Both the position numbers and the translations under genes were made by a program. A stretch of DNA of 33,821 bases from Bacteroidales bacterium (lineage in GTDB: Bacteria > Bacteroidota > Bacteroidia > Bacteroidales > B18-G4), in the NCBI GenBank assembly GCA_030618905.1, contig JAUXCL010000004.1, positions 1 to 33,821 on the forward strand, given 5' to 3'. This document shows positions 4,128 through 33,607 of the stretch, one piece after another (positions within the stretch are counted from its first letter, which is position 1; the number at the start of each line of letters is the position of its first letter). Under the pieces are notes generated by a model, which saw only the letters and a list, made by a program, of their open reading frames with translations, ran no database searches and was not told the origin of the DNA.

Positions 4128-5294
4128 CTAATGATGATGCAGACTTTCTTCAAGGTATGGATGATTCCTGGCAACCAAAGGTGCTTTGGCCAGCGACCAG
4201 GCAACTACGAAAGCAAAGATGCCAAGGTAGCCGATAAAGGTTCCGATCTCGATATAATTGATCTCCAGTATACCATAAGTGCCTACGATAACTTGCTGAT
4301 ACAGGTCAACCCATTGTCCAAACATCAGGAGTATACCAATGGCAAGTAATGCATTTTTATTGGTGGCTATTTTGCCGGAAAGCAGGAGAATAAATGGCAC
4401 TAACCAATTGATGATCAACTCCGCATAGAAAAAGAACTGGAATTCCCCTTTGGTTCTGGGAAGGTAATATATCGTCTCTTCGGGAATATTGGCATACCAG
4501 ATGAGGATATACTGCGAAAACCAGGTATAAGCCCAGATGACTCCAAGGATAAGTATATATTTTGAAAAATCCCTGAGGTGCGATTTATTGAGAAATGGAA
4601 GGTAACCTGTTTTATTCAGGATAATGATGACCATAACAATAATCACAGAACCGTGGTAGAATCCCATTACAAAGTTTCTCACAGCAAATATGGTACTGAA
4701 CCAGTGTACATCGATCGACATGATCCAGTCGAATGAGGCCAGAGAAAAGGTGATAGCAAGTACAAAAATGTATACTTTGGAATAGAATTCACTTTTTTGA
4801 AAATATTTCAACCCACCTTCCTGGTCTTCTTTTAGTGAGTATCTGCGCAATAAATAGTTGAGGAATGTCCAGACTATAAAAAACAGTGCGTACCTGGCAA
4901 TGAAGAATGTGGTGTTGAGATAAGGGGACTTGTGTGCGATGAGGGCATCATGTTCAACAGCATCATGGTGTGCCCAATGATACAGGTCAGGTAAGCCGAA
5001 CAGTATGATTGGCAGCATTAATATGCCGGCAACTGGAATGAAACTTGTAATGGCCTGTGGGATACGGACAAATGCTGAGGACCATCCTGATTGTGAGATG
5101 TATTGGATGGCTGCAAAGAAGCTTGCACCGATAGCGATGGTCAGAAAGTAATAGTTACTCATCAGCAGATTTGCCCATGTTTTGACAGGATTGGACATCA
5201 ATCCGAAAATCACCGTGATAACCCCAATACCAAAAAGGGAGAGGGAAATGTATTTAAATATGGGTGATATGGTCAGTTTCTTATCCATTATCAT
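4128..5294 (-). CDS. actF: Alternative complex III subunit ActF (quinol:cytochrome c oxidoreductase membrane subunit)
   Basis: 388 aa polytopic membrane protein in canonical order after ActE; WYANIPEETIYY and SIDVHWFSTIFAV are typical of ActC/ActF-like NrfD-related proteins. Confidence 0.88.
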   Translation of the reverse strand: MIMDKKLTISPIFKYISLSLFGIGVITVIFGLMSNPVKTWANLLMSNYYFLTIAIGASFFAAIQYISQSGWSSAFVRIPQAITSFIPVAGILMLPIILFGLPDLYHWAHHDAVEHDALIAHKSPYLNTTFFIARYALFFIVWTFLNYLLRRYSLKEDQEGGLKYFQKSEFYSKVYIFVLAITFSLASFDWIMSIDVHWFSTIFAVRNFVMGFYHGSVIIVMVIIILNKTGYLPFLNKSHLRDFSKYILILGVIWAYTWFSQYILIWYANIPEETIYYLPRTKGEFQFFFYAELIINWLVPFILLLSGKIATNKNALLAIGILLMFGQWVDLYQQVIVGTYGILEINYIEIGTFIGYLGIFAFVVAWSLAKAPLVARNHPYLEESLHHH

Positions 5295-5339
5295 TATTTT
5301 TTAATTGTTTCCAAGCTGATTATTCCTTTTCGTATTGAT

Positions 5340-5912
5340 CTATTTAGCGATTGACCGCAAATAATTGATGATCATCCACCTGTTTTCCGCTGTGATCTGT
5401 CCCCCGTGAGGTCCCATCAGTCCCGACAGGGAACCCATGGTGATGATATGATAAAGCTCACCATCGGGTTTGCCCTGCACATAAGCATCAACCAGTGATG
5501 TTGGTTTAGCTTTAAATTTTTTGCTGCTATACAAAAACCCATCTCCAGCCCCTGTCTTTCCATGGCAGTTCAAACAATAGATAGTATATTGTGCTTTACC
5601 TTTTACCAGGCTGATCCCATTGGCTTCAACCGGGTTGATCAATTCTTCACCGGCCCTGAGCTGATCAGGATATGAGCGTTTTTTATAGGGATAAGCTTTA
5701 TAACCACGCGGAATGGTCCCTTCTACCGGGGTTAGCATCGTTACGGAATCGATAAATACCGGGTTTGGACTATACGCATTGTAAGCTTCAGAATAATACA
5801 TATCGGGCATATAGGCATATCCCGGATTACTCCGGTCATGGTTACAGGCGGAAGCCATCAACAGGAGTCCGGCAAACAGCACTAATTTATACTTTCGAAT
5901 GAATGTTATCAT
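5340..5912 (-). CDS. actE: Alternative complex III subunit ActE, monoheme cytochrome c lipoprotein
   Basis: 190 aa, lipobox-like MASAC, one CLNCHGKTGAGDG heme motif, located between ActD and ActF. Confidence 0.9.
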   Translation of the reverse strand: MITFIRKYKLVLFAGLLLMASACNHDRSNPGYAYMPDMYYSEAYNAYSPNPVFIDSVTMLTPVEGTIPRGYKAYPYKKRSYPDQLRAGEELINPVEANGISLVKGKAQYTIYCLNCHGKTGAGDGFLYSSKKFKAKPTSLVDAYVQGKPDGELYHIITMGSLSGLMGPHGGQITAENRWMIINYLRSIAK

Positions 5913-5923
5913 GACTGCTAAGA

Positions 5924-6472
5924 TTAATCGTTTTCTTCTTCAATATATCCCTCGGGGAGAGGCTTTTCAGCTATTTCCACCGCTCCGGTTTCTTCCAGTA
6001 CCTTATTGATCTGAGATATGTCATCAGCACTTAATTCGGGATCTTTTTCAATAACAATGGCAAATTTATCATCAGTTGTCCGGGGATCGATCATCACCAC
6101 CTTTTTACCCGGGCCTAGTTTTTGACGGATGAAAAAGGTCATAAAAGTCAGCAATGTGGCCACAAATATTGTGGCTATAAACATGATGATGATAAATGAA
6201 AGTGAATTCAGCGGCTTACCCCCGAATTTTAGCGGATAACTCACAACAGATGTCCAGTAGAGGAACGCAAATGACACAGAAACGCCAATGACACCATAGA
6301 TAAATGTGAGGTATGGCAGTCGTGTTTTCAGGTTTAATGCTTCAAACACCCCATGAACCGGAAATGGAGAAAAGACATTTTTAATCTTAATGCCCTTTTC
6401 CCTGATCTTAAGAATGGCACTTACCAGCACATCCGGGTCATCGTAAACGCCAATGATTTCAATCTTTTCCAT
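5924..6472 (-). CDS. actD: Alternative complex III subunit ActD (DUF3341)
   Basis: 182 aa; IIGVYDDPDVLVSAILKIREKGIKIKNVFSPFPVHG matches the DUF3341 signature; two TM segments. Confidence 0.92.
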   Translation of the reverse strand: MEKIEIIGVYDDPDVLVSAILKIREKGIKIKNVFSPFPVHGVFEALNLKTRLPYLTFIYGVIGVSVSFAFLYWTSVVSYPLKFGGKPLNSLSFIIIMFIATIFVATLLTFMTFFIRQKLGPGKKVVMIDPRTTDDKFAIVIEKDPELSADDISQINKVLEETGAVEIAEKPLPEGYIEEEND

Positions 6473-6476
6473 TATC

Positions 6477-7841
6477 TTATTTTTTTACTATGCTTGTTTC
6501 TTTTAAGATCCCTTTGATCTCAGAGATTGCGATCATGGGGATATAGCGGAAGAAGAGTAATATTCCAAGAAAGAATATTCCAAGTGTTCCGATAAAAATA
6601 GCTGCCTCGATAAATGTCGGTTCATAGGTGGCCCAGCTGGAAGGCAGAAAGTCCTTTGAAAGGGAAGTCACTACGATCACATACCTTTCAAACCACATCC
6701 CGATATTAATGAAAATAGAGATGATAAATACCAGGGTGATGTTGCTCCTGATCTTTTTGAACCAGAAAAGCTGAGGAATTATGGTATTACATGTGATCAT
6801 TGTCCAGAAGGCTACCGTATACTCACCGGTCACCCTGTTTTTCATGAAGGTAAACATCTCATATTCGGTTCCTGAATACCAGGCGATGAACAACTCTGTT
6901 GCATAAGCAGTTCCCATGATGAGACTGATGAAGGTCAGTATTCGTGCAATAGCATCAAGGTGACCTTTGGTCACATAATCCTGGTATTTAAATACCTTTC
7001 TGACAATGATCATCAGGGTGAGCACCATGCCAAATCCTGAAAAGATGGCGCCAACCACAAAATAGGGTGGGAATATTGTTGTATGCCAGCCGGGCATAAT
7101 TGAGGTGGCAAAGTCCATGGATACGATGGAGTGGACAGCGATAACCAGCGGAGCAGCAAGCCCACCGAGAAGCAATGATGCAGTTTCAAACCTTAGCCAT
7201 CCTCTTGCAGTACCGACCCATCCAAAGCTAAGGAAACCGTAAACTGCCTTTTTGGTTTTTGATATCGACCGTTCGCGGATATTTGCAAAATCAGGGATCA
7301 TGCCAATATACCAGAATACTGCCGATGCCATAAGATATGTGCTGATCGCCACAACATCCCAGAATAGCGGGGAGTTGAAATTATCCCATATCGGTCCCCG
7401 TGTATTCCAGTAAGGCAGGATGAAAAATGCATTCCAGATTCTTCCCATATGCAGCATGGGGAACATACCGGCGCAAATCACCGCCACAACTGTCATCGCT
7501 TCAGCGGCACGGTTAATTGATGTCCTCCACTTCTGCCGCATGATTAATAAAAATATGGAAAAAGCGGTTCCGGCATGTCCAATACCTATCCACCATACAA
7601 AGTTGATGATTCCGAAACCCCAGGCAACGTTATTGTTCACCCCCCATGTGCCAATCCCTGTTGAAACGGTTACATAAATGGCCCATAAACCCAATACCAT
7701 CATACCAGTGCTGATGAACATTGCCAGGAACCACCATTTGGGTGGTGACTTGGCTTCCAGCGGTCTTAAGATATCTTCCGTGACCTGATGGTAAGTTTTA
7801 TCGCCTTTTACGAGTATACCTCGAACGCCAATATTATACAT
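6477..7841 (-). CDS. actC: Alternative complex III subunit ActC (NrfD/PsrC family)
   Basis: 454 aa, multi-TM; GIGHAGTAFSIFLLIMRQKWRTSINRAAEAMT and MLHMGRIWNAFFILPYWNTRGPIWDNFNSPLFWDVVAISTY are ActC hallmarks. Confidence 0.94.
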   Translation of the reverse strand: MYNIGVRGILVKGDKTYHQVTEDILRPLEAKSPPKWWFLAMFISTGMMVLGLWAIYVTVSTGIGTWGVNNNVAWGFGIINFVWWIGIGHAGTAFSIFLLIMRQKWRTSINRAAEAMTVVAVICAGMFPMLHMGRIWNAFFILPYWNTRGPIWDNFNSPLFWDVVAISTYLMASAVFWYIGMIPDFANIRERSISKTKKAVYGFLSFGWVGTARGWLRFETASLLLGGLAAPLVIAVHSIVSMDFATSIMPGWHTTIFPPYFVVGAIFSGFGMVLTLMIIVRKVFKYQDYVTKGHLDAIARILTFISLIMGTAYATELFIAWYSGTEYEMFTFMKNRVTGEYTVAFWTMITCNTIIPQLFWFKKIRSNITLVFIISIFINIGMWFERYVIVVTSLSKDFLPSSWATYEPTFIEAAIFIGTLGIFFLGILLFFRYIPMIAISEIKGILKETSIVKK

Positions 7842-7860
7842 AATGATAATTTTTTTCCAT

Positions 7861-10812
7861 TCAATTTTTGTTTCTCACTTTTGTCATATAACTGACAGAA
7901 GGAAGCGTATGTAAATATTCCAGTAACTGATATGTCCTTGGATCTTTCAATAATCTGGAGATCTCACTTTCCGGGTCATTCATATTGCCAAAAATGATAG
8001 CATTTCCAGGGCATGATTGCTGGCAGGCAGGTTTGATCTCCCCATCATCCAATATTCGCCCTTCGTTTTTAGCCAATAATTTCTTTTCCTGGATACGCTG
8101 TACACAGAATGAGCATTTCTCAACCACACCTCTTGACCTGACGGTAACATCAGGATTGAGGACCAGCTTTTCCTGCTCGCTGTTCATGTTATAGTCATAT
8201 TCATCATTGTCAACAAACTCGAACCAGTTAAAACGCCTGACCCGGTATGGACAGTTGTTCATGCAATAACGCGTTCCGATACAACGGTTATAAGCCATCT
8301 GGTTAAGCCCTTCATTACTGTGTGGCGTGGCTGCGACGGGACAAACATTTTCGCAGGGAGCATTATCACAATGCTGACACATCACCGGTTGGTGCACCAC
8401 TTCAGGATTATCCGGATCATCAGAATAATACCTGTCAATTCTTATCCAGTGCATGATACGCCTGTTTTTAACTTCTTCTTTTCCAATAACAGCCACATTA
8501 TTTTCGGCCTGACAGCTGATAATGCAGTTGCCACACCCGATACAGGCATTCAGGTTGATGGCCATGCCCCAATGGTATCCGTCATATTCCGGGATTTCAT
8601 ACAAGGTCAGGTTTTGCTTGGCAATATCCATGTGGATTTCATTGCCGGAATTGGGTTTCTCCTGCCATTGATCAAGGGTCGTTTCCCTGACAATAGGACG
8701 TCCTTCCATGCTATTGTGGGTTTGAGTAGTGGCCAGGGGGTAGGTCTTGCCTGTTACTTTCTCCAGTTGCACCACCCTGCCTGAAAGTTTACGAAGTCCT
8801 TCAAAGGAATTGATGTATGGATAGAGGTTCTTGCCAATGCCTTCGGCTACCTTGCCTGCAATAAGCCTTCCATACCCAAGAGCAACGGAGACAGTACCAT
8901 GTGCCTGACCTGCTTGTATCAGTGCCGGCAATTCCAATTCACCATTGATGGACAGTATATCTTCCTGTTCAATGCCATGCTCCCCGGCATATTTAGGAGG
9001 AATGCAAATGTAATTATCCCAAACGGCTGTTGTTATCGGATCGGGCATTTCCTGCAACCAGGGATTATTGGCATTTTTGCCGGATCCGATCGACATTTTT
9101 TCATACAAGACCAATTCCAGCCCATTATCATTACTGGAAAGTGCTTTCAAGGGTACATCCTGAAAAGCAGGTTGATCTTTTTCTATTTGTTCAATGTGCA
9201 TGATGCCATCATGAACAGCCTGGTACCAAAAATCGGAAAACAACATGAATTGATCCTGTTGTGAAAACAGCTCTTGTTCCCAATATGCTTCAAGATAAGC
9301 GGCATAATCCGTATCCGATCCCATCCACTTGATTAAAGAATCCTGGAACTGCCTGGTGTTAAATATTTTTTGTATTGCCGGTTGGGCCAGGCTATAATAG
9401 CCTTGCTTAGGTTCTGCATCATTCCATGATTCAAGATAATGGTTGTCAGGACAGACATATTCAGCAAGGTCAGCTGTTTCATCAATCCTGTCAGAAAATG
9501 AAATACTGAGATCAAGCTTAGCCATGCCATCAGCAAATTTCTTCGCATCAGGATAGTCATATGCCGGATTCACGTTGTAAATCAGCAATGCACCTACATT
9601 TCCATTGGCCATATCCTCTACCAGTCTGGTCATCTCCTGATCAATACCCTGCCTGATAAACATGGGTTTACTGAGGTCGATGGTATGTCCGTAGTTGCCC
9701 AATAAGTTATTAATCGCATTGACAATGAGCTGTATGCCCAGGTCATTAGCCCCCGAAATAAGCAATGATTTCCCTTTGTTCCTGAGCAGCTCCAGAGCCA
9801 GCTCATGCACATCAACCGGTGTAGCGGGTGCATTATAAGTGCCGGTTCCAACAGTGTTGGCAATTTCATTGTAAAGATTGAGCAGTACTGCCCCTTCATC
9901 AGAAGGTTTGATGCTAACACGTTCATCTGCATTTGAACCGGTCAGCGACATGCCGGATTCATATTGCAGATGGCGCGACATGGGAAGTCCGTTGACCAGG
10001 TTCCTCCTGCTGGAATACTGTTTGGCAAACTCGACAGGGGAAAGCCAATTTCCAAGAAAATCCGCATTGAATCCCACAATCAGGTCTGCTTTGTCAAAAT
10101 AGTATGAAGGAATGGCTTTTGAGCCGAATTGCATCTCGTTTGCCTGCAGTAAGGCAGAGGCCGAGATGGTATCATAACTTACCCATGCTGTTCCAGGGAA
10201 TTTAACCTGGAATTCACCAATCAGCTTTTTAGTGGCAGGGCTGATGATGGTAGAGCTGAGCATGACTATCTTTTTTCCTGCTGATGACAGCTTCTCAAGT
10301 TTGGAAATGATCTCGGCATCTATGGTTTCCCAATCGGCTTTTTCATTTTTCTTTAAAGGCTCCCTGAATCTTGCTTCATCATACAAACTCAAAACTGATG
10401 ATTGAACCCTTGCACTGGTTCCTCCCCGGGAGATGGGGGATAATTCATTTCCCTCTATTTTGATCGGCCTGCCTTCCCTTGTTTTCACAAGAATACTGCA
10501 ATAATCCTGTCCGTCAAAAAAGGTTGAAGCATAATAATTGGCGACTCCCGGTACCACTTCCTGTGGTTGATTCAGGTAGGGAATGGCTTTGCGTACCGGT
10601 GTTTCACAACTCGTTGCGATCGCAGCATAACCAACGGTGAAGCCCAGCATTTTTAAAAAGTCACGCCGGTTTGATTTACCTCTTATCTCGTCATCTGTCA
10701 GACCTTCAATTGGAGACTCAGCATTGCTTTCCTGTTTTTCCAATTTCGAACTGTCTTCCGCTGGGTTTGAATGCTGCTTATATTCTTCTATGCTTTGCCA
10801 GTATTTTTTCAT
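7861..10812 (-). CDS. actB: Alternative complex III subunit ActB (fused molybdopterin-oxidoreductase-like and 4Fe-4S ferredoxin-like protein, Tat signal)
   Basis: 983 aa; Tat motif NRRDFLKMLGF; Fe-S motifs CIGCGNCIISC, CQHCDNAPCENVCP, CIGTRYCMNNCPYRVRRFNW, CSFCVQRI...CQQSCP. Confidence 0.95.
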   Translation of the reverse strand: MKKYWQSIEEYKQHSNPAEDSSKLEKQESNAESPIEGLTDDEIRGKSNRRDFLKMLGFTVGYAAIATSCETPVRKAIPYLNQPQEVVPGVANYYASTFFDGQDYCSILVKTREGRPIKIEGNELSPISRGGTSARVQSSVLSLYDEARFREPLKKNEKADWETIDAEIISKLEKLSSAGKKIVMLSSTIISPATKKLIGEFQVKFPGTAWVSYDTISASALLQANEMQFGSKAIPSYYFDKADLIVGFNADFLGNWLSPVEFAKQYSSRRNLVNGLPMSRHLQYESGMSLTGSNADERVSIKPSDEGAVLLNLYNEIANTVGTGTYNAPATPVDVHELALELLRNKGKSLLISGANDLGIQLIVNAINNLLGNYGHTIDLSKPMFIRQGIDQEMTRLVEDMANGNVGALLIYNVNPAYDYPDAKKFADGMAKLDLSISFSDRIDETADLAEYVCPDNHYLESWNDAEPKQGYYSLAQPAIQKIFNTRQFQDSLIKWMGSDTDYAAYLEAYWEQELFSQQDQFMLFSDFWYQAVHDGIMHIEQIEKDQPAFQDVPLKALSSNDNGLELVLYEKMSIGSGKNANNPWLQEMPDPITTAVWDNYICIPPKYAGEHGIEQEDILSINGELELPALIQAGQAHGTVSVALGYGRLIAGKVAEGIGKNLYPYINSFEGLRKLSGRVVQLEKVTGKTYPLATTQTHNSMEGRPIVRETTLDQWQEKPNSGNEIHMDIAKQNLTLYEIPEYDGYHWGMAINLNACIGCGNCIISCQAENNVAVIGKEEVKNRRIMHWIRIDRYYSDDPDNPEVVHQPVMCQHCDNAPCENVCPVAATPHSNEGLNQMAYNRCIGTRYCMNNCPYRVRRFNWFEFVDNDEYDYNMNSEQEKLVLNPDVTVRSRGVVEKCSFCVQRIQEKKLLAKNEGRILDDGEIKPACQQSCPGNAIIFGNMNDPESEISRLLKDPRTYQLLEYLHTLPSVSYMTKVRNKN

Positions 10813-10836
10813 AATCTTTATTGCGTTAAATGGCGA

Positions 10837-11997
10837 TTAATAATGGCATTTCTGACAATCATTGCCTCCGATATCATCAACAGTAACTATCGTCTTTTTG
10901 CCACTCTTCAATTGTTCATGCAATTTCTCATAACTCCTGTAGAAATCATTATTGATGAACTGTACTTCAGTCCTCCGGTGACAATTCACGCACCAGCCCA
11001 TGCCAAGGTCGTTCACCTGCTGGATCCGGTCCATTTCCTTTACTTCTCCATGGCATTGAGCACAATCAATATTACCCACTGAAACATGCTGGGCATGATT
11101 GAAATATACATGGTCAGGTAAATTGTGGACTTTTACCCATTCGATGGGTTTATGGGTTTCAACAGCTGCATATATTTTGGCAATTTCTTCTTTTCCGGTT
11201 TGTGTTCCCTCTTTGACCACATTATGGCAATTCATACACACAGCAACACTGGGTATCCCGGCATGCATGCTTTCATCAACAGTACTGTGGCAATATTTAC
11301 AATCAGTCTGGTTATCACCCGCATGTATCCTATGCGAAAACTGAATGGGTTGATCGGGCTCATAATATTGCTGCCGGCCCAGGTTCTGAGCTTCCAGGAT
11401 GCTTACTTCCGTGACAACAGCAGCTGAGATGAGGATTATGATAATGTGGATTGCTTTTACCTTGACGATCCTGGTGATTAACAGGTCGAGCAGGGCGATC
11501 AGGATAATGATGACGGATATGAAAAATGAGACCTGCAGGTTAGAAAATGGATTCTCCGTATCTGCCATAAACACGTATTGATCTTCGGTAGCATGCTCAT
11601 CTGCTGCTGCTTCTGTCTTGACTGCCATGTCATAATTTTCTATGTAGGCGAGCACGGCATCTACCTGTCCGGTGGTGAAGTTATTAGGAGGCATCGGGAT
11701 CTTATTATTCTCCTCAAAGATCTTAACCGCATATTCATCTCCTGCCTGCACCAGTTCCTGGGAGTTGATGATGAACTTAACCAGCCATTCCTTTTCAAGG
11801 CGTTCGGTGACACCTTTAAGGTCCGGTCCGATCAGCTTTCCTTTCCCGATCGTATGGCACGCGGCACATACCTTGAATAATTGTTCACCTTCATCCTGGG
11901 CTTGTAATTCCCAGCCTGAAATCATGAATAATAATGCGATAATGGAAATAATTTTGAGGAAATATTTCGCAGGCTTACAGAAATGTAAATTGTGCAT
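10837..11997 (-). CDS. actA: Alternative complex III subunit ActA: N-terminal monoheme c domain, TM segment(s), then pentaheme domain
   Basis: 386 aa with six CxxCH motifs: CAACH (N-terminal), then CKYCH, CMNCH, CAQCH, CVNCH, CQKCH; signal peptide and internal hydrophobic helices. Confidence 0.93.
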   Translation of the reverse strand: MHNLHFCKPAKYFLKIISIIALLFMISGWELQAQDEGEQLFKVCAACHTIGKGKLIGPDLKGVTERLEKEWLVKFIINSQELVQAGDEYAVKIFEENNKIPMPPNNFTTGQVDAVLAYIENYDMAVKTEAAADEHATEDQYVFMADTENPFSNLQVSFFISVIIILIALLDLLITRIVKVKAIHIIIILISAAVVTEVSILEAQNLGRQQYYEPDQPIQFSHRIHAGDNQTDCKYCHSTVDESMHAGIPSVAVCMNCHNVVKEGTQTGKEEIAKIYAAVETHKPIEWVKVHNLPDHVYFNHAQHVSVGNIDCAQCHGEVKEMDRIQQVNDLGMGWCVNCHRRTEVQFINNDFYRSYEKLHEQLKSGKKTIVTVDDIGGNDCQKCHY

Positions 11998-19234: not shown

Positions 19235-20404
19235 TTAATATTCAAACTCCCCAAATGCTGATCTGATCGTAAGCTTCTTCTTCCCGGATGGCTCCACATG
19301 CCCGATGATCCGGGCATCGATATGGAAAGTTTTTGAAATGCTGATGAGGTCTGCTGCAATGGCTTCAGGTACATACAGCTCCATGCGATGGCCCATGTTG
19401 AAGACTTTATACATCTCCTGCCATGGAGTATGGGACTGCTCTTGTATGAGTTTGAAGAGAGGGGGTGGAGAGAAGAGATTATCTTTAATAACATGCAGGG
19501 TATCCACAAAATGTAAGATCTTGGTCTGCCCACCGCCACTGCAATGGACCATGCCGTGAATCTGTCCACGGTAAGCATCCAGTATTTGCCTGATGACCGG
19601 GGCATAGGTACGGGTAGGGGACAGGATCAATTTGCCGACATCCACAGCATCCACCTCAGTAGAGTCTGTTAGTTTTTTCTTTCCACTATATACCAGGTTC
19701 TCCGGAATACTTTGATCAAAACTCTCAGGATACCGGATAGCATATGAATGGTCCAAAACATCATGCCTGGCTGAAGTAAGCCCATTGCTTCCCATGCCTC
19801 CATTATAAGCATGCTCATAAGTAGCCTGTCCGAAGGAAGCCAGCCCGACGATGACATCCCCGGCACGGATCTGATCGTTGCTGATAATCTCCGAACGCTT
19901 CACTCTTGAAATCACTGTAGAGTCAACAATGACCGTTTTAACCAGGTCGCCAACATCAGCCGTTTCACCTCCTGTAGAGTAAATCCCGATACCCATCCCC
20001 CTTAAATCCTCCAGGAATTCTTCTGTGCCGTTGATGATTGCAGCAATCACTTCCCCGGGAATGTTTTGTTTGTTCCTGCCTATGGTGGATGAAAGCAATA
20101 TATTATCTGTAACTCCAGCACATAATAAATCATCCAGGTTCATGACGACAGCATCCTGAGCGATTCCCTTCCATACGGAAAGTTCGCCGGTCTCTTTCCA
20201 GTACAAGTAAGCAAGAGAGGATTTCGTTCCGGCACCATCCGCATGCATGATATTGCAATAAGCCTTATCATCGCCGAGGATGTCCGGGATGATCTTGCAG
20301 AAAGCATTGGGGTAAAGGCCTTTGTCAATATTCTTTATGGCATTGTGGACATCGCTCTTACTGGCTGATACACCTCTGCGTGAATACCTCGATTCGGAAG
20401 ACAT
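19235..20404 (-). CDS. purM: Phosphoribosylformylglycinamidine cyclo-ligase-like protein (PurM/AIR synthase)
   Basis: AIR synthase motifs (DGAGTKSSLAYLY, DLLCAGVTDNILLSSTIGRNK, GIYSTGGETADVGD, GQIHGMVHCSGGGQTK). Start trimmed to ATG 20402-20404 (MSSESRYSRRGVSASK); the ORF-track extension to 20521 overlaps the upstream gene. Confidence 0.88.
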   Translation of the reverse strand: MSSESRYSRRGVSASKSDVHNAIKNIDKGLYPNAFCKIIPDILGDDKAYCNIMHADGAGTKSSLAYLYWKETGELSVWKGIAQDAVVMNLDDLLCAGVTDNILLSSTIGRNKQNIPGEVIAAIINGTEEFLEDLRGMGIGIYSTGGETADVGDLVKTVIVDSTVISRVKRSEIISNDQIRAGDVIVGLASFGQATYEHAYNGGMGSNGLTSARHDVLDHSYAIRYPESFDQSIPENLVYSGKKKLTDSTEVDAVDVGKLILSPTRTYAPVIRQILDAYRGQIHGMVHCSGGGQTKILHFVDTLHVIKDNLFSPPPLFKLIQEQSHTPWQEMYKVFNMGHRMELYVPEAIAADLISISKTFHIDARIIGHVEPSGKKKLTIRSAFGEFEY

Positions 20405-20429
20405 GATCTGATATCGGAATATGATGTTA

Positions 20430-22898
20430 TTAATATTCGAAAGTGATTTTCTGTGTTGAATTGTCAATCTTATAATTGCCAATTTTTTGCAGCAAGCGCT
20501 TACCAAATACCATAGGTTCATTCAGTCGGTGGCTTACAGTGACTTCCACATCAAGTATGGTTTTGCTGGCAATGCGTAATTCTTTGATGACAAATACTGC
20601 CCCGTTTCTAATGGTGTTACTACCCAGTACCTCTTTCGGGTCGCCATTGAAATCTTCTTTACTGATGGATCCTTCATTAAGCATGGCAAGTCCTTTTTCA
20701 AGGGACACCTGTACAGGTTTTTCAGGATCATAATAGAACCGCTCATCAAATCCATTGATGATGCAAGGGATGATCAATATACCCGTATTGGGCTCTGTAG
20801 TGAATTTTACGACATTATCTTCGGGATTGATCTGGATATTTACCTGTGCGATCTCCTCACCTGCTATCCTTGATTTGGGAATATAGTCTTTCCTCAGCAC
20901 CCTGAAATCTGTCCGGCGGTTTAGCTGGTGTGCCTCTTCTTTTACCTCGGTGCTGGGCAGAGCCTCAATATATTCTTCGTTAAGCACGTCACCTTCCTTA
21001 AAAGTATATCCTGCCCTGGGCATGTCTTTTAACATCAGCCTGGGTTGGCGTTCACCATAACCTTTGGCCACCAGGCGGTCAGGATCAATGCCCCTTAATA
21101 TGAGATAGTCAACCACCGACTGTGCACGTTTCTGTGAAAGAATATCATTCCTTTCATAGGAATCCCTCGAATCGGTATGTGAAGCAAGCTCAACGACAAT
21201 GCGTGGATTCTCATCCAGAGTGGTGACCAAACCCTGTAGTGAGTCCTCATATTGTGGCTTGAGATCCCACTTGGCCAGATCATATAAAATTTCAGGAAGA
21301 ATAATTGGTTCCTCCGGAATGGGCTTCAGTACAAAATCTTTGTTGAAATCTGTACCCACTTCAACACCAACAGTGGTGATCTTGGCAGCTGAGTTGAAAT
21401 ATTCGTCTTTGGTTACAATGATGTCGTATGTAGTATTTGGCAATACCTGTGTTTTACCAAACATATAAAAACCCTGGTCATTGGTACGTGTGGAAACAGA
21501 GATCCCATCTGATCCTATCATGGTAATGGTGGCATCAAGAACATACTGAAGCGTACGATCATCCGTAACAACTCCCTTGATTGTAAATTCCAGCGGAGGA
21601 ATAATAAAAGAAAATATATCTTCCCTGCCTTTTCTGCCTCTTCGGTCAGAAGCAAAAAATCCCATTTCCAGTTCTTCATGAAAGCAAATACTAAAATCAT
21701 TAAAGGTAGTATTCAGCGGATAGCGCATATTCACCGGTTCGCCCCAATTGCCTTCTTCATCAATGGCGGAGTAAAAAATATCCAGTCCACCCATTCCGGG
21801 ATGACCATCTGAGGCAAAATACAACAGTGTATCGCTTCTCAGGCATGGGAATAACTCCTCACCGGGAGTATTGATGACAGGCCCAAGGTTAAAGGGTCTG
21901 CTGAAAGGTTCTGATATTGTTTCCCTGAAGGCTACCCATATGTCTTTTCCTCCTGAACCTCCTGTTTTATTGGAAGAAAAATAAATGATCAGCTCGTTGG
22001 CACTTACAGCCGGATGTCCTATGGCAATTGAAGAATCCCGGCCCAACACGACTATTTGAGGTTTGCTCCAATTTCTTCCGGCCCGGTCAGCAGTATAAAT
22101 CTGGCAACCCATTTGCCGTTTTTCTACATTGGGACATCGGGTGAAATATAAAGTGTTAAACCTGCTGTTCATGACGCCAACACCCTCATTATCTTCGGTA
22201 TTGATTCCATCTTCACCGGTAGTGAGCAAAGTAGGCTCACTCCACTCTTCCTTGCGGTCAAGGCGGGTATAGAACAGATCACTGAATGCCATATCAGTCC
22301 ATTCGTCTTTGCCTTTCCCCGTTGAACTTTCACGTGTGGAAGTAAAAATCAGGTCATTAAAATTGCTACTGGAATAGATGGGGGAAAAATCTGATTCCCT
22401 GGAATTGATCTTTTTGATATACTCAATTTCATATTTGGATGGATTATCAATCCAATCCTGGATGAAATCACAGGATAAAGCACCATTAAAACCCCGGATA
22501 TCCTCAGGCTCTGCTTCCACATAAGCATTATAATACTCTTTAGCTTCTTCATAATTACCATCCATCTTCAGGGTTTCGGCATAACGAAGCAAAAGGATAG
22601 GGGCTTTCTTATCGTAATTTGAGCGGATCAATCGCTTGTACTGGGACTTGGCCTTTTTGTAATCAGCCATAAACCAGTAACACTCAGCAATCTGGAAATA
22701 TATTCGGTCTTTCTCAGCCTTGTTGTTCTTGACCTTATTAACGACCTTTTGGTATCGTTCAGCAGCCAGTGCAAATTTCTCATCCTCAAAAGCCTCATCA
22801 GCACCTTTGGCATAGTACCTGGTCTTTTGGGCTTGTACGCTTCCAGCCGTTATCAATAATGCGCAGATTACAAACAGAACAACCTTGCTGATTTTCAT
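20430..22898 (-). CDS. PorE-like OmpA-family protein: signal peptide, TPR, PD40/WD40-like propeller, carboxypeptidase-regulatory-like domain, OmpA C-terminal domain, plus a C-terminal retropepsin-like degenerate domain
   Basis: 822 aa. TPR (EKFALAAERYQKVVNK...), PD40-type repeats (SDFSPIYSSSNFNDLIFTSTRES; HPAVSANELIIYFSSNKTGGSGGKDIW; DTLLYFASDGHPGMGGLDIFYS), CRD (FTIKGVVTDDRTLQYVLDATITMIGSDG), OmpA (VVELASHTDSRDSYERNDILSQKRAQSVVDYLILRGIDPDRLVAKGYGERQP). Confidence 0.82.
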   Translation of the reverse strand: MKISKVVLFVICALLITAGSVQAQKTRYYAKGADEAFEDEKFALAAERYQKVVNKVKNNKAEKDRIYFQIAECYWFMADYKKAKSQYKRLIRSNYDKKAPILLLRYAETLKMDGNYEEAKEYYNAYVEAEPEDIRGFNGALSCDFIQDWIDNPSKYEIEYIKKINSRESDFSPIYSSSNFNDLIFTSTRESSTGKGKDEWTDMAFSDLFYTRLDRKEEWSEPTLLTTGEDGINTEDNEGVGVMNSRFNTLYFTRCPNVEKRQMGCQIYTADRAGRNWSKPQIVVLGRDSSIAIGHPAVSANELIIYFSSNKTGGSGGKDIWVAFRETISEPFSRPFNLGPVINTPGEELFPCLRSDTLLYFASDGHPGMGGLDIFYSAIDEEGNWGEPVNMRYPLNTTFNDFSICFHEELEMGFFASDRRGRKGREDIFSFIIPPLEFTIKGVVTDDRTLQYVLDATITMIGSDGISVSTRTNDQGFYMFGKTQVLPNTTYDIIVTKDEYFNSAAKITTVGVEVGTDFNKDFVLKPIPEEPIILPEILYDLAKWDLKPQYEDSLQGLVTTLDENPRIVVELASHTDSRDSYERNDILSQKRAQSVVDYLILRGIDPDRLVAKGYGERQPRLMLKDMPRAGYTFKEGDVLNEEYIEALPSTEVKEEAHQLNRRTDFRVLRKDYIPKSRIAGEEIAQVNIQINPEDNVVKFTTEPNTGILIIPCIINGFDERFYYDPEKPVQVSLEKGLAMLNEGSISKEDFNGDPKEVLGSNTIRNGAVFVIKELRIASKTILDVEVTVSHRLNEPMVFGKRLLQKIGNYKIDNSTQKITFEY

Positions 22899-29248: not shown

Positions 29249-31678
29249 ATGAAAAGAATAAGAATTTTATCCTTGTTTGCAACAGCCCTTCTGCTTGTTG
29301 CGTTCAATGTAAAGACATTTGCCCAGATCTCTCAGGGGGGGATCCCTCCAAGTTTCCTTTATCCAGCCATTAACGAACAGGTTGAAGTAAAGGATTTTCG
29401 TGCCCCCGACATGGAACAGATTAACAGGGAAGATGCAGAAAACAGGGAACTTGGATACCCGAAACCTTTTCGTGTTGCTGTTGCTATTCCTGTAAATTTA
29501 TCCATTGAGAATGCAGGTACCTGGACAGAGCTGCCGGATGGTGGCAGGATCTGGAGAATAAAACTGTCTTCAGAAGGCGCAGTGGCACTTGGTGTATATT
29601 ATGATGACTTCTGGCTGCCATCAGGCGGGGAACTCTATCTTTATAATGAGAACAGAGACCATGTCATTGGTGCTTTTACAGAAGAGAACAATAATGCTGA
29701 ATGTGTATTCGCTAATCAATTGATCGAAGGCGAGATAATTACACTGGAGTATTACGAGCCCGAAGGAACTACAATCCAGCCCAACATCAATATTTCTGAA
29801 ATTGCCTATACTTATCGGGGGGTGCATTTTGAGCATGTAACTGACCGGGGCGGCTCTGCCTGGTGTATGATCAACATCAACTGTGTGGAAGGTGATGACT
29901 GGCAGGATGAAAAGCATGGGGTCGTTAAGCAATTCATGAAAATAGGCATATACTATTACCTGTGTACAGGCACATTGATTAATAATACCAGCCAGGATAA
30001 GACACCGTATGTACTTACCGCCTGGCACTGTGGTGAGAATGCAAGTTCCGGAGACTTGAACCAATGGGTATTCTATTATAATTATGAGTCGTCTACTTGC
30101 TCCGGCAACTGGGGACCATCTGGCTATTCCCAAACAGGATGCCAGAAAAGGGCAGAGGGAAGTTTTGTATTAGGATCTGATTTCCTGCTCTTAGAGTTAA
30201 ATTTAAATGTGCCTACTTCCTATAATCCTTATTTTAACGGTTGGGACAGGAGAAACGTTTCGGCCGACAGTGGAGTTAACATTCATCATCCACAGGGGGA
30301 TATAAAAAAGATATCGACATTTGATGAACCGGCAGGTTCATCTCAGTGGAATAATAACGGGGTGCTCTCTCACTGGCGTGTGTGGTGGGCTGAAACCGTT
30401 AACGGATTATCCATCACAGAAGGTGGCTCATCCGGTTCACCATTATTTAACCAGGTTGGACGTGTTGTTGGTGACCTTTCAGGTGGTCCTCCGGATGATT
30501 GTAACAGCCCCCTTTACAGTCTGTATGGCAAAGTATATTGGTCCTGGGACCAGATGGGAAGCGCAAATTCACAACGTCTTGAACCATGGCTTGACCCTGA
30601 AGGCTCCGGTGTAGAGGTATGGGATGGTATGTATGAAGCGACAGCCCCGGATCCGGATTTCGCAGCTGATGTGACGACCATTCAAACTGGCGGGGAGGTC
30701 AACTTTGAGGACCTGACAACAGGTAATCCATTGGATTGGGAATGGGACTTTGAAGGAGGTACACCAAATACATTTGTGGGGAAAGAACCACCGGCAATTC
30801 AATATGATACCCCCGGAAAATATACTGTCTCACTGACTTCATCCAATACCATCGGATCAAATACCAAGGATAGTGTGGAGATGATTACTGTTGGAGCACC
30901 AGCGGCTGATTTTTCTGCTGACCATACCTATCTCATGAATGGTGATACATCCAACTTTTTGGATGAATCTATTGGTGACCCAACAGAATGGTACTGGGAA
31001 TTCCCGGGAGGTGAGCCAGCTACTTCTACAGCTCAGAATCCTGAAAATATCATTTATACGGAAACTGGTCAATACGATGTAACCCTTGTGGCCATTAATG
31101 AATATGGCAACGATACGCTTGTGAAAGAGGAATTTATTACCGTTGGTGGTCCATTTGCAGCCTTTATAGCTGATGAAACCAATATTGTTGCCGGTGAATC
31201 GGTTACCTTTACCGATCTTTCGATCAACAACCCGGCCACATGGTCCTGGAAATTCACCGGAGGTTCACCGGGAAGCTTTAACGGCCAGGTCCCCCCTGAA
31301 ATTACATACAATAACCCCGGTAATTATGCTGTTAAGCTTACCGTCAGTAGTGATATGGGATCGGATTTCGAAAACAAGATCGGCTATATCCAGGTGGGTA
31401 CAATTGGCATTGATGAAGGTTCGGTTGACAATGATGGCGTGAAGGTTTATCCTAATCCCAGTACCGGTATCGTTAACGTTCTTTTTGAAGAAGTATCATC
31501 ACTGGTAGATCAGATCAAAGTGGTCAATGCTTTTGGAGAAGAGATATACATATTAGAGCCGGGCCAATCCGGATCACAATTTGAAGTGGACCTTTCAGAT
31601 CAGCCAAATGGTGTATATTTCCTGAATATTACAATAGGAGATAAGGTGATCAGTGAAAAGGTTTATATCATGAAATAA
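29249..31678 (+). CDS. T9SS-secreted Lys-C-like serine endopeptidase (S1 fold) with three PKD domains and type A sorting domain
   Basis: 809 aa; signal peptide; catalytic-type motifs VLTAWHCG (His), GSDFLLLELN (Asp), EGGSSGSPLFN (Ser); three PKD repeats ending ...MITVG, ...FITVG, ...YIQVG; C-terminal VKVYPNPSTGIVNVLFEE...LSDQPNGVYFLNITIGDKVISEKVYIMK is a T9SS type A CTD. Confidence 0.93.
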   Translation: MKRIRILSLFATALLLVAFNVKTFAQISQGGIPPSFLYPAINEQVEVKDFRAPDMEQINREDAENRELGYPKPFRVAVAIPVNLSIENAGTWTELPDGGRIWRIKLSSEGAVALGVYYDDFWLPSGGELYLYNENRDHVIGAFTEENNNAECVFANQLIEGEIITLEYYEPEGTTIQPNINISEIAYTYRGVHFEHVTDRGGSAWCMININCVEGDDWQDEKHGVVKQFMKIGIYYYLCTGTLINNTSQDKTPYVLTAWHCGENASSGDLNQWVFYYNYESSTCSGNWGPSGYSQTGCQKRAEGSFVLGSDFLLLELNLNVPTSYNPYFNGWDRRNVSADSGVNIHHPQGDIKKISTFDEPAGSSQWNNNGVLSHWRVWWAETVNGLSITEGGSSGSPLFNQVGRVVGDLSGGPPDDCNSPLYSLYGKVYWSWDQMGSANSQRLEPWLDPEGSGVEVWDGMYEATAPDPDFAADVTTIQTGGEVNFEDLTTGNPLDWEWDFEGGTPNTFVGKEPPAIQYDTPGKYTVSLTSSNTIGSNTKDSVEMITVGAPAADFSADHTYLMNGDTSNFLDESIGDPTEWYWEFPGGEPATSTAQNPENIIYTETGQYDVTLVAINEYGNDTLVKEEFITVGGPFAAFIADETNIVAGESVTFTDLSINNPATWSWKFTGGSPGSFNGQVPPEITYNNPGNYAVKLTVSSDMGSDFENKIGYIQVGTIGIDEGSVDNDGVKVYPNPSTGIVNVLFEEVSSLVDQIKVVNAFGEEIYILEPGQSGSQFEVDLSDQPNGVYFLNITIGDKVISEKVYIMK

Positions 31679-31714
31679 ATGCATAATAGGAACTTATTGA
31701 TTGTTTGGGCATTC

Positions 31715-33607
31715 ATGCGAACTTTAAAAATTACTCTTCCTGCACTCCTTATCATTTTGTTTTTATGCTTAAATGCTGAAGCACAGATCAGCCAGGGAGG
31801 AATGCCCATAAGTAATGATTTACTTTCATTAAGTAAAGATGCCAATACCCTGATTATTCCCAGGCCTGATGTGAGTTATTCTTCAACCGGGATATCTGAT
31901 AAACGCATAGAACCAACCCTTGTAGGCCCTGTTATTCCTATTCATATTTCATTGCTTGAAGAAGGAACCTGGACAGATTTACCGGGAGGACAACGGATCT
32001 GCAGGCTGAAAATAAAATCTGAGGGAGCCCTTGGAATGGCATTATATTATAAGTCTTTCGAAATAGGCGGGGATGCTACACTCTTTATCTACAATCCGGG
32101 ATATTCTTTTGTTATTGGGGCATATACTGCTGTGAACAATCCTGACAAGGGATCATTTGCAACTGAACTTATTCCAGGTGATGAACTCATCCTTGAATAC
32201 CACGAATCAGGCAGTTCTTCAATGTCTGAAATTGAAATATCCGGATTGCTATATGCTTATCAACATGTTCCTTATACAGTCCCGGGGCAAAAGGATTTTG
32301 GGAGCTCTGGCTTTTGCGAGGTCAATGTTAACTGCCCTGAAGGAACAAACTGGCAAAGGGAAAAACGGGGTGTCGCCAGGATTCTGTTATACACCGGCAG
32401 TTCAGCTTTTTGGTGTTCCGGATCACTTATAAATAATGTCAGGCAAGATAGTACACCTTATTTTCTGACTGCTTCTCATTGTGGACAAAATGCCACCACA
32501 GCTGATTATGCAAAATGGATATTTTATTTTAATTATGAATCTCCTTTTTGTGAAAACCCGGGAACTAATCCATCACACCAGTCATTAACGGGTTCAACAC
32601 TGATTGCAAAGGCAACTGATGCTACATCAACGGGATCGGATTTTAAATTATTACTCCTTAACGATTATTTACCAGAGGATTACAACCCTTTCTTCAATGG
32701 CTGGAGCAATGAAAATGAGCCCGGCAATACGGGTGTAGGTATTCACCACCCCAAGGGTGATATTAAAAAGATCTCTACATATACAGACGTATTAAAGTCG
32801 ACAGCTTACGGAAGCAATGCTGTAGATCCGGATGAAAAATTCTGGAGGGTTGTCTGGGCTCCCACCCAAACGAACCACGGTGTTACAGAAGGTGGGTCAT
32901 CAGGAAGTCCTATTTTTAACCAGGGGGGTAAGCTCATCGGTACCTTATCAGGTGGCTTTGCTTCCTGTACCAACCTTGAAATGCCCGACTATTACGGTAA
33001 GTTTTCTTATTCCTGGATGTCGAATGGAACTGGCAGCCAACAACAGCTGAAGCCCTGGTTGGATCCTGATAATACAGGCCTGAAAGAGATTGAAGGTTTT
33101 GGTTATGGGTTTATTTTATCAGCCAGTTTCTATACGGATACAACTGCTATCGTTATCGGTGACTATGTTCATTTTCAGGATAATTCAGTTGGGGACCCTT
33201 CAAACTGGATCTGGCATTTTCCCGGAGGAAAGCCTGCTTACGCAGAAGGACAGGATCCCGGCACCATTAAATACGATAGCTATGGGTATTATGATGTCAT
33301 GCAAATCGTTTATAAAGGTGGTTTGACCGATACCCTGGTACGGCAAAACTATATCCATGTGGGTGCCAGTATATATCCGGTTCCGGCGATCGATTACATC
33401 AACTTTAACTTCGGAAACCGGGAAGTCAGGCACATTGAGGTTAAACTTTATGATACCTGGGGGAGACTTGTCAAGGAAGTCCGGAATACCAATGGTAAAT
33501 CCAAAAGATTCAAATGGGATATTTCCGATGTTCCAGTCGGGATGTATATCCTGAGATACAAGGTTGACGGGCAGGAGAGCCAGGTAGTGAAGATAATAAT
33601 TGCGTGA
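31715..33607 (+). CDS. T9SS-secreted Lys-C-like serine endopeptidase paralog with one PKD domain and sorting domain
   Basis: Motifs FLTASHCG, GSDFKLLLLN, EGGSSGSPIFN; one PKD (YTDTTAIVIGDYVHFQDNS...YIHVG); CTD IYPVPAIDYINFNF...SDVPVGMYILRYKVDGQESQVVKIIIA. Start placed at ATG 31715 (MRTLKITLPALLIILFLCLNAEAQ, a good signal peptide) rather than 31679. Confidence 0.92.
   Translation: MRTLKITLPALLIILFLCLNAEAQISQGGMPISNDLLSLSKDANTLIIPRPDVSYSSTGISDKRIEPTLVGPVIPIHISLLEEGTWTDLPGGQRICRLKIKSEGALGMALYYKSFEIGGDATLFIYNPGYSFVIGAYTAVNNPDKGSFATELIPGDELILEYHESGSSSMSEIEISGLLYAYQHVPYTVPGQKDFGSSGFCEVNVNCPEGTNWQREKRGVARILLYTGSSAFWCSGSLINNVRQDSTPYFLTASHCGQNATTADYAKWIFYFNYESPFCENPGTNPSHQSLTGSTLIAKATDATSTGSDFKLLLLNDYLPEDYNPFFNGWSNENEPGNTGVGIHHPKGDIKKISTYTDVLKSTAYGSNAVDPDEKFWRVVWAPTQTNHGVTEGGSSGSPIFNQGGKLIGTLSGGFASCTNLEMPDYYGKFSYSWMSNGTGSQQQLKPWLDPDNTGLKEIEGFGYGFILSASFYTDTTAIVIGDYVHFQDNSVGDPSNWIWHFPGGKPAYAEGQDPGTIKYDSYGYYDVMQIVYKGGLTDTLVRQNYIHVGASIYPVPAIDYINFNFGNREVRHIEVKLYDTWGRLVKEVRNTNGKSKRFKWDISDVPVGMYILRYKVDGQESQVVKIIIA

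Follow-up and report, generated by a model that had tools for sequence, protein, structure and literature searches.

A C-terminal retropepsin-fold domain lacking its catalytic motif in PorE-type proteins of mostly uncultured Bacteroidales

The PorE protein of P. gingivalis is needed for secretion by the T9SS and binds PorP, as shown for that species only, and it has been proposed to tether the PorK/N rings to peptidoglycan (PMC9143113). The P. gingivalis protein is a lipoprotein, and its OmpA domain is the last domain described (PMC7192894). Bacterial retropepsin-like aspartic proteases are known separately, for example, APRc of Rickettsia conorii (5C9B/5C9F) and RloA of Pseudomonas (PMC12239564). 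The gene described here lies in a window of 33,821 nucleotides, i.e., the whole stretch of DNA that was analysed, and encodes a PorE-type protein of 822 amino acids with a signal peptide, TPR, PD40 beta-propeller, CarboxypepD_reg-like, and OmpA_C domains, followed by a pseudo-retropepsin domain (Table 1).

The window protein has the PorE domain order of TPR, beta-propeller, CRD, and OmpA_C, with the OmpA domain delimited at residues 543–619 by Pfam or at 534–668 by its match to the solved domain of P. gingivalis (6TOP), the closest solved structure. Its best family in NCBIfam was T9SS_PorE (NF052230), with 551.5 bits over residues 13–669, far ahead of CHU_0125; this score is below the family cut-off of 600 bits, so the T9SS role of the window protein rests on homology. 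Reading of the sequence revealed a signal peptide and no lipobox, and in this respect the protein does not fit an outer-membrane lipoprotein. In the PorE survey, candidate lipoboxes were present in 4 of 59 forms fused to the domain versus 14 of 48 short forms. We also considered whether the domain might stand in for a lipid anchor, but this idea was rejected: outside the P. gingivalis-like group, a lipobox is missing from most of the short PorEs as well. The T9SS complement of the genome includes SprA, PorP-family, and GldM/PorM proteins and 85 CTD matches, two of them inside the window. The porE gene is located between tatA-secDF and purM, and among 72 fused loci, purM was at most 3 kb away in 47 and secDF in 30. 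The listed purM ORF (19235–20521, minus strand) overlaps porE if it starts at 20521; the more likely start is at 20404, just past the end of porE at 20430. Elsewhere in the window, two adjoining trypsin-like proteins with Por_Secre_tail domains, one of which also has PKD domains, are encoded at 29249–33607 (plus strand) and are likely T9SS cargo. The genes at 4128–11997 (minus strand) resemble those for QrcABCD or alternative complex III subunits, and include one for a 983-amino-acid protein with molybdopterin-type and Fe-S regions.

Table 1. Features of the porE-type gene and of its 3' extension, in window coordinates
Feature	Position	Strand	Basis
porE-type gene, 822 aa	20430..22898	-	ORF 22898..20430; Pfam and NCBIfam
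OmpA region	20895..21299	-	Pfam, 6TOP match, peptidoglycan-contact residues
Linker between OmpA and pseudo-retropepsin, about residues 671–695	20814..20888	-	Low model confidence
Pseudo-retropepsin domain, residues 696–822	20433..20813	-	AlphaFold2, Foldseek PDB, DTG-only profile
Degenerate active-site loop DPEKP, residues 724–728, replacing D[TS]GAS	20715..20729	-	Alignment of fused copies
Helix–loop, residues 739–752 (MLNEGSISKEDFNG in the window)	20643..20684	-	PorE-only conserved columns 739, 740, 745, 747, 750

The first-pass annotation had read the last approximately 126 residues, beyond the OmpA domain and quoted there as the translation of 20810..20433, as retropepsin-like, and the predicted fold, the structural matches, and the family profiles all agreed with this reading. 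The tails of 48 relatives within the order (alignment A1) share a common core, and the AlphaFold2 model based on this alignment (pLDDT 90.4, pTM 0.81) is a retropepsin beta-barrel. The 25 matches found in the PDB with Foldseek at E ≤ 0.001 were retropepsins, Ddi1 retropepsin-like domains, a putative endopeptidase, and penicillopepsin; the R. conorii retropepsin ranked first (4.9e-6), with the Ddi1 retropepsin-like domains next, and was also matched by the tail sequence profile searched against the PDB (E = 0.0014). At the level of families, the noteworthy recurrent matches to the tails were to aspartyl proteases only: Pfam gag-asp_proteas (PF13975) was matched by 28 of the 48 tails at E ≤ 1 (best 2.3e-5) and TIGR02281 clan_AA_DTGA by 22 (best 1e-6). 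The window tail by itself had no Pfam or NCBIfam match at E ≤ 10, so relatives are needed to recognize the domain. A profile built from only the 41 relatives with an intact DTG retrieved the window tail at 4.3e-20 (shuffles, 0 of 2000) and matched none of the PorE proteins without the tail. These relatives had been collected by means of the tail profile, which makes the test less than fully independent; the structure and the matches to Pfam and TIGR do not depend on that collection. The second hydrophobic-hydrophobic-Gly motif of the fold is also present, as MVFG at residues 796–799, and its Gly is found in 59 of 77 fused copies. We conclude that residues 696–822 (approximately 127 residues) form a genuine, conserved domain that has the retropepsin fold but no catalytic D[TS]G.

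In place of the catalytic D[TS]GAS, the window protein has DPEKP; Asp724 (codon GAT, 20729–20727, within YYDPEKP) is present, and the TG turn is absent. The first-pass annotation had recognized this replacement and had judged that the domain looks like a pseudoprotease, a description that proved to apply well beyond the window. In 77 PorE-fused copies, the column of the catalytic Asp contained D in 34, E in 12, N in 8, and other residues in the remainder, and no copy had [TS]G in the next two columns, whereas D[TS]G was intact in all 25 non-PorE relatives of the same survey. In a second collection, which shares genomes with the first, D[TS]G was found in 0 of 74 PorE-fused copies versus 17 of 19 other matches, the latter obtained from a class-level search. 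As the DTG turn has been lost in every PorE-fused copy examined, the term pseudoprotease holds for the family and not only for the window gene. One paralogue (L124) has DPGTS at the active-site loop, a possible vestige of the active site. These observations support the view that the C-terminal domain of this PorE family is a pseudoprotease, in which the catalytic residues were lost and the fold was kept under purifying selection.

The survey of PorE orthologs for the extension showed that the fusion is shared by a large set of Bacteroidales, most of them uncultured. The retropepsin domain was found in 121 of 393 genomes of the order, about 105 of which (counted from the list) carry it as a PorE fusion, and the remainder as stand-alone forms or other fusions. 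In the family of the window genome, the gene occurs in nine of nine genomes, with one tail interrupted by a contig end. Outside the order, there was no PorE fusion among the full-length matches examined (248 phylum-level and 295 class-level genomes). In a tree of the PorE core, 58 of 59 fused proteins fell into one clade, the exception (L132) grouping with short forms, and the labels changed twice compared with a shuffled mean of 36; in a tree of the domain, one branch (support 86) separated 66 PorE rows from 25 DTG rows. This pattern fits a single fusion followed by some losses, although trees cannot prove the direction. Sister short-form PorEs (L058–L064) have low-complexity tails in place of the domain, and those of L058, L059, and L061 are rich in Pro, Lys, and Asn. 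The PorE of L275 has a Pro/Lys linker; its C-terminal segment resembled a SPOR domain on visual inspection, an assignment dropped for lack of Pfam support. Other arrangements occur in the order: in L106, L108, L111, L115, L117, and L118, TPR proteins of 685–742 amino acids end in a retropepsin domain with an intact DTG, representing a separate fusion; a 518-amino-acid ORF of L197 encodes a TPR protein with tandem retropepsin domains, the first with LDFGCD and the second with an intact DTG; and a non-PorE relative in L190 has FDTVAS instead of DTGAS. An ancestor of the large PorE clade probably gained a DTG-bearing retropepsin-like domain of the type seen in secreted or TPR-linked proteins of the same order. 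The loss of catalysis would have coincided with the fusion or come shortly after it, with vertical inheritance of the fold under purifying selection thereafter. The trees, motif counts, and dN/dS values support this scenario.

Within the OmpA domain, D576, N584, and R591 coincide with the stem-peptide contacts of P. gingivalis PorE and were invariant in 71 fused rows. The model of OmpA together with the tail (pTM 0.74) consists of two well-folded domains joined by a linker with pLDDT of about 65–78. Because the three stem-peptide-binding residues are retained, the pseudo-retropepsin is placed at the cell-wall end of PorE, where, judging from homology and the model, it would sit on a linker of approximately 20 residues. 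There it most likely acts as a docking module. Its partner would be a different periplasmic protein, belonging to the T9SS or the envelope, or else another copy of PorE, bound via the dimer interface of the retropepsin fold. When the 77 fused copies were compared with the DTG relatives, the columns conserved solely in the DTG enzymes lay mostly in the catalytic loop and the LLLGqS strand, whereas those conserved solely in PorE were 739, 740, 745, 747, and 750, meaning that the old cleft is less constrained and the helix–loop more so. This conservation hints weakly that the helix–loop 739–752, rather than the old substrate cleft, may be the docking face. The best explanation, and one that we consider likely, is that an inherited pseudoprotease has taken on a new role as a docking module where PorE meets the peptidoglycan; binding is what we infer, as is true of the "binding or scaffold module" that the first-pass annotation had suggested. 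In simpler terms, a retropepsin-derived domain without its cutting site, preserved by selection, is probably a binding part of PorE. A wider proposal, for and against which we see the case as evenly balanced, is that the retropepsin fold has become a dedicated adaptor, devoid of catalysis, in a bacterial secretion machine, and that in this clade the pseudoprotease ties the T9SS anchor at the peptidoglycan either to itself or to a second partner. Against a docking module, P. gingivalis PorE functions without the domain and the sister lineages mentioned above also lack it, so it is dispensable for the core role of PorE, and the conservation of the helix–loop could reflect packing and not a binding face.

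Among the other explanations, the one that survives best, as a possible but distinctly less favored reading, is that the domain mainly homodimerizes, pairing two PorE C-termini through the ancestral retropepsin dimer interface, so that anchors are bridged around the T9SS ring and no other ligand is bound. Retropepsins work as dimers, and the C-terminal strand region is well preserved in the fused copies (F820 in 70, D812 in 59, and I811 in 57 of 77), but the strongest PorE-specific conservation is that of the helix–loop 739–752. It is improbable that the domain is a functionless, decaying relic. Although the catalytic site is gone, some sister lineages lack the domain, and several pairs show faster evolution of the tail than of OmpA (among the more distant pairs, most have more amino-acid change in the tail), the frame is intact in about 105 genomes, near-invariant positions extend across dozens of family-level groups, and in the two pairs whose synonymous change was not saturated, the tail dN/dS was 0.10 and 0.09, resembling the rest of the gene. 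The tail domain is maintained, yet less constrained than OmpA. A still active aspartic protease, using Asp724 and a divergent loop, is very hard to credit and was rejected: the Asp of the window and of 34 copies and the DPGTS of one paralogue would favor it, but the residue is replaced in 43 of 77 copies, including by E, N, G, S, and L, the [TS]G pair is missing from every PorE copy examined, and the otherwise conserved LLLGqS strand is relaxed. That the tail has some other beta-rich fold of convergent retropepsin likeness, as the lack of a Pfam match to the window tail alone might suggest, is scarcely plausible, given sequence-profile matches (1e-6, 4e-20) beyond fold likeness and structural matches at E ≤ 0.001 that were all to aspartic proteases or their retropepsin-like domains.

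We found no description of a PorE–retropepsin fusion in the open-access literature searched; PorE and bacterial retropepsins are each known, and what appears to be new is their fusion with clade-wide loss of catalysis. If the adaptor reading is true, the anchoring architecture of this clade differs from those of P. gingivalis and F. johnsoniae. The clade-wide extra domain on PorE offers a testable handle. It is also a clear bacterial case of a retropepsin fold retained without catalysis, and intact relatives from the same order are available to compare it with. The window protein and P. gingivalis PorE (PG1058; NF052230; 6TOP) have in common the order of TPR, beta-propeller, CRD, and OmpA, and the same three peptidoglycan-binding residues at identical positions; in contrast to the P. 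gingivalis protein, in which OmpA (534–668) is last, the window protein continues for 154 residues past residue 668 and lacks a lipobox. The tail resembles the bacterial retropepsin-like aspartic proteases (PF13975, TIGR02281) in fold, domain length, and sequence profile, but it has no D[TS]G and forms the C-terminus of a peptidoglycan-anchored scaffold, not a free enzyme. The nearest sequence relatives found are the DTG-bearing proteins of Bacteroidales, which are stand-alone forms of approximately 180–250 amino acids or TPR–retropepsin proteins of 685–742 amino acids; they share a GxLxxxDxxG loop with the PorE tails, but their active-site motif is intact and they are not fused to PorE.
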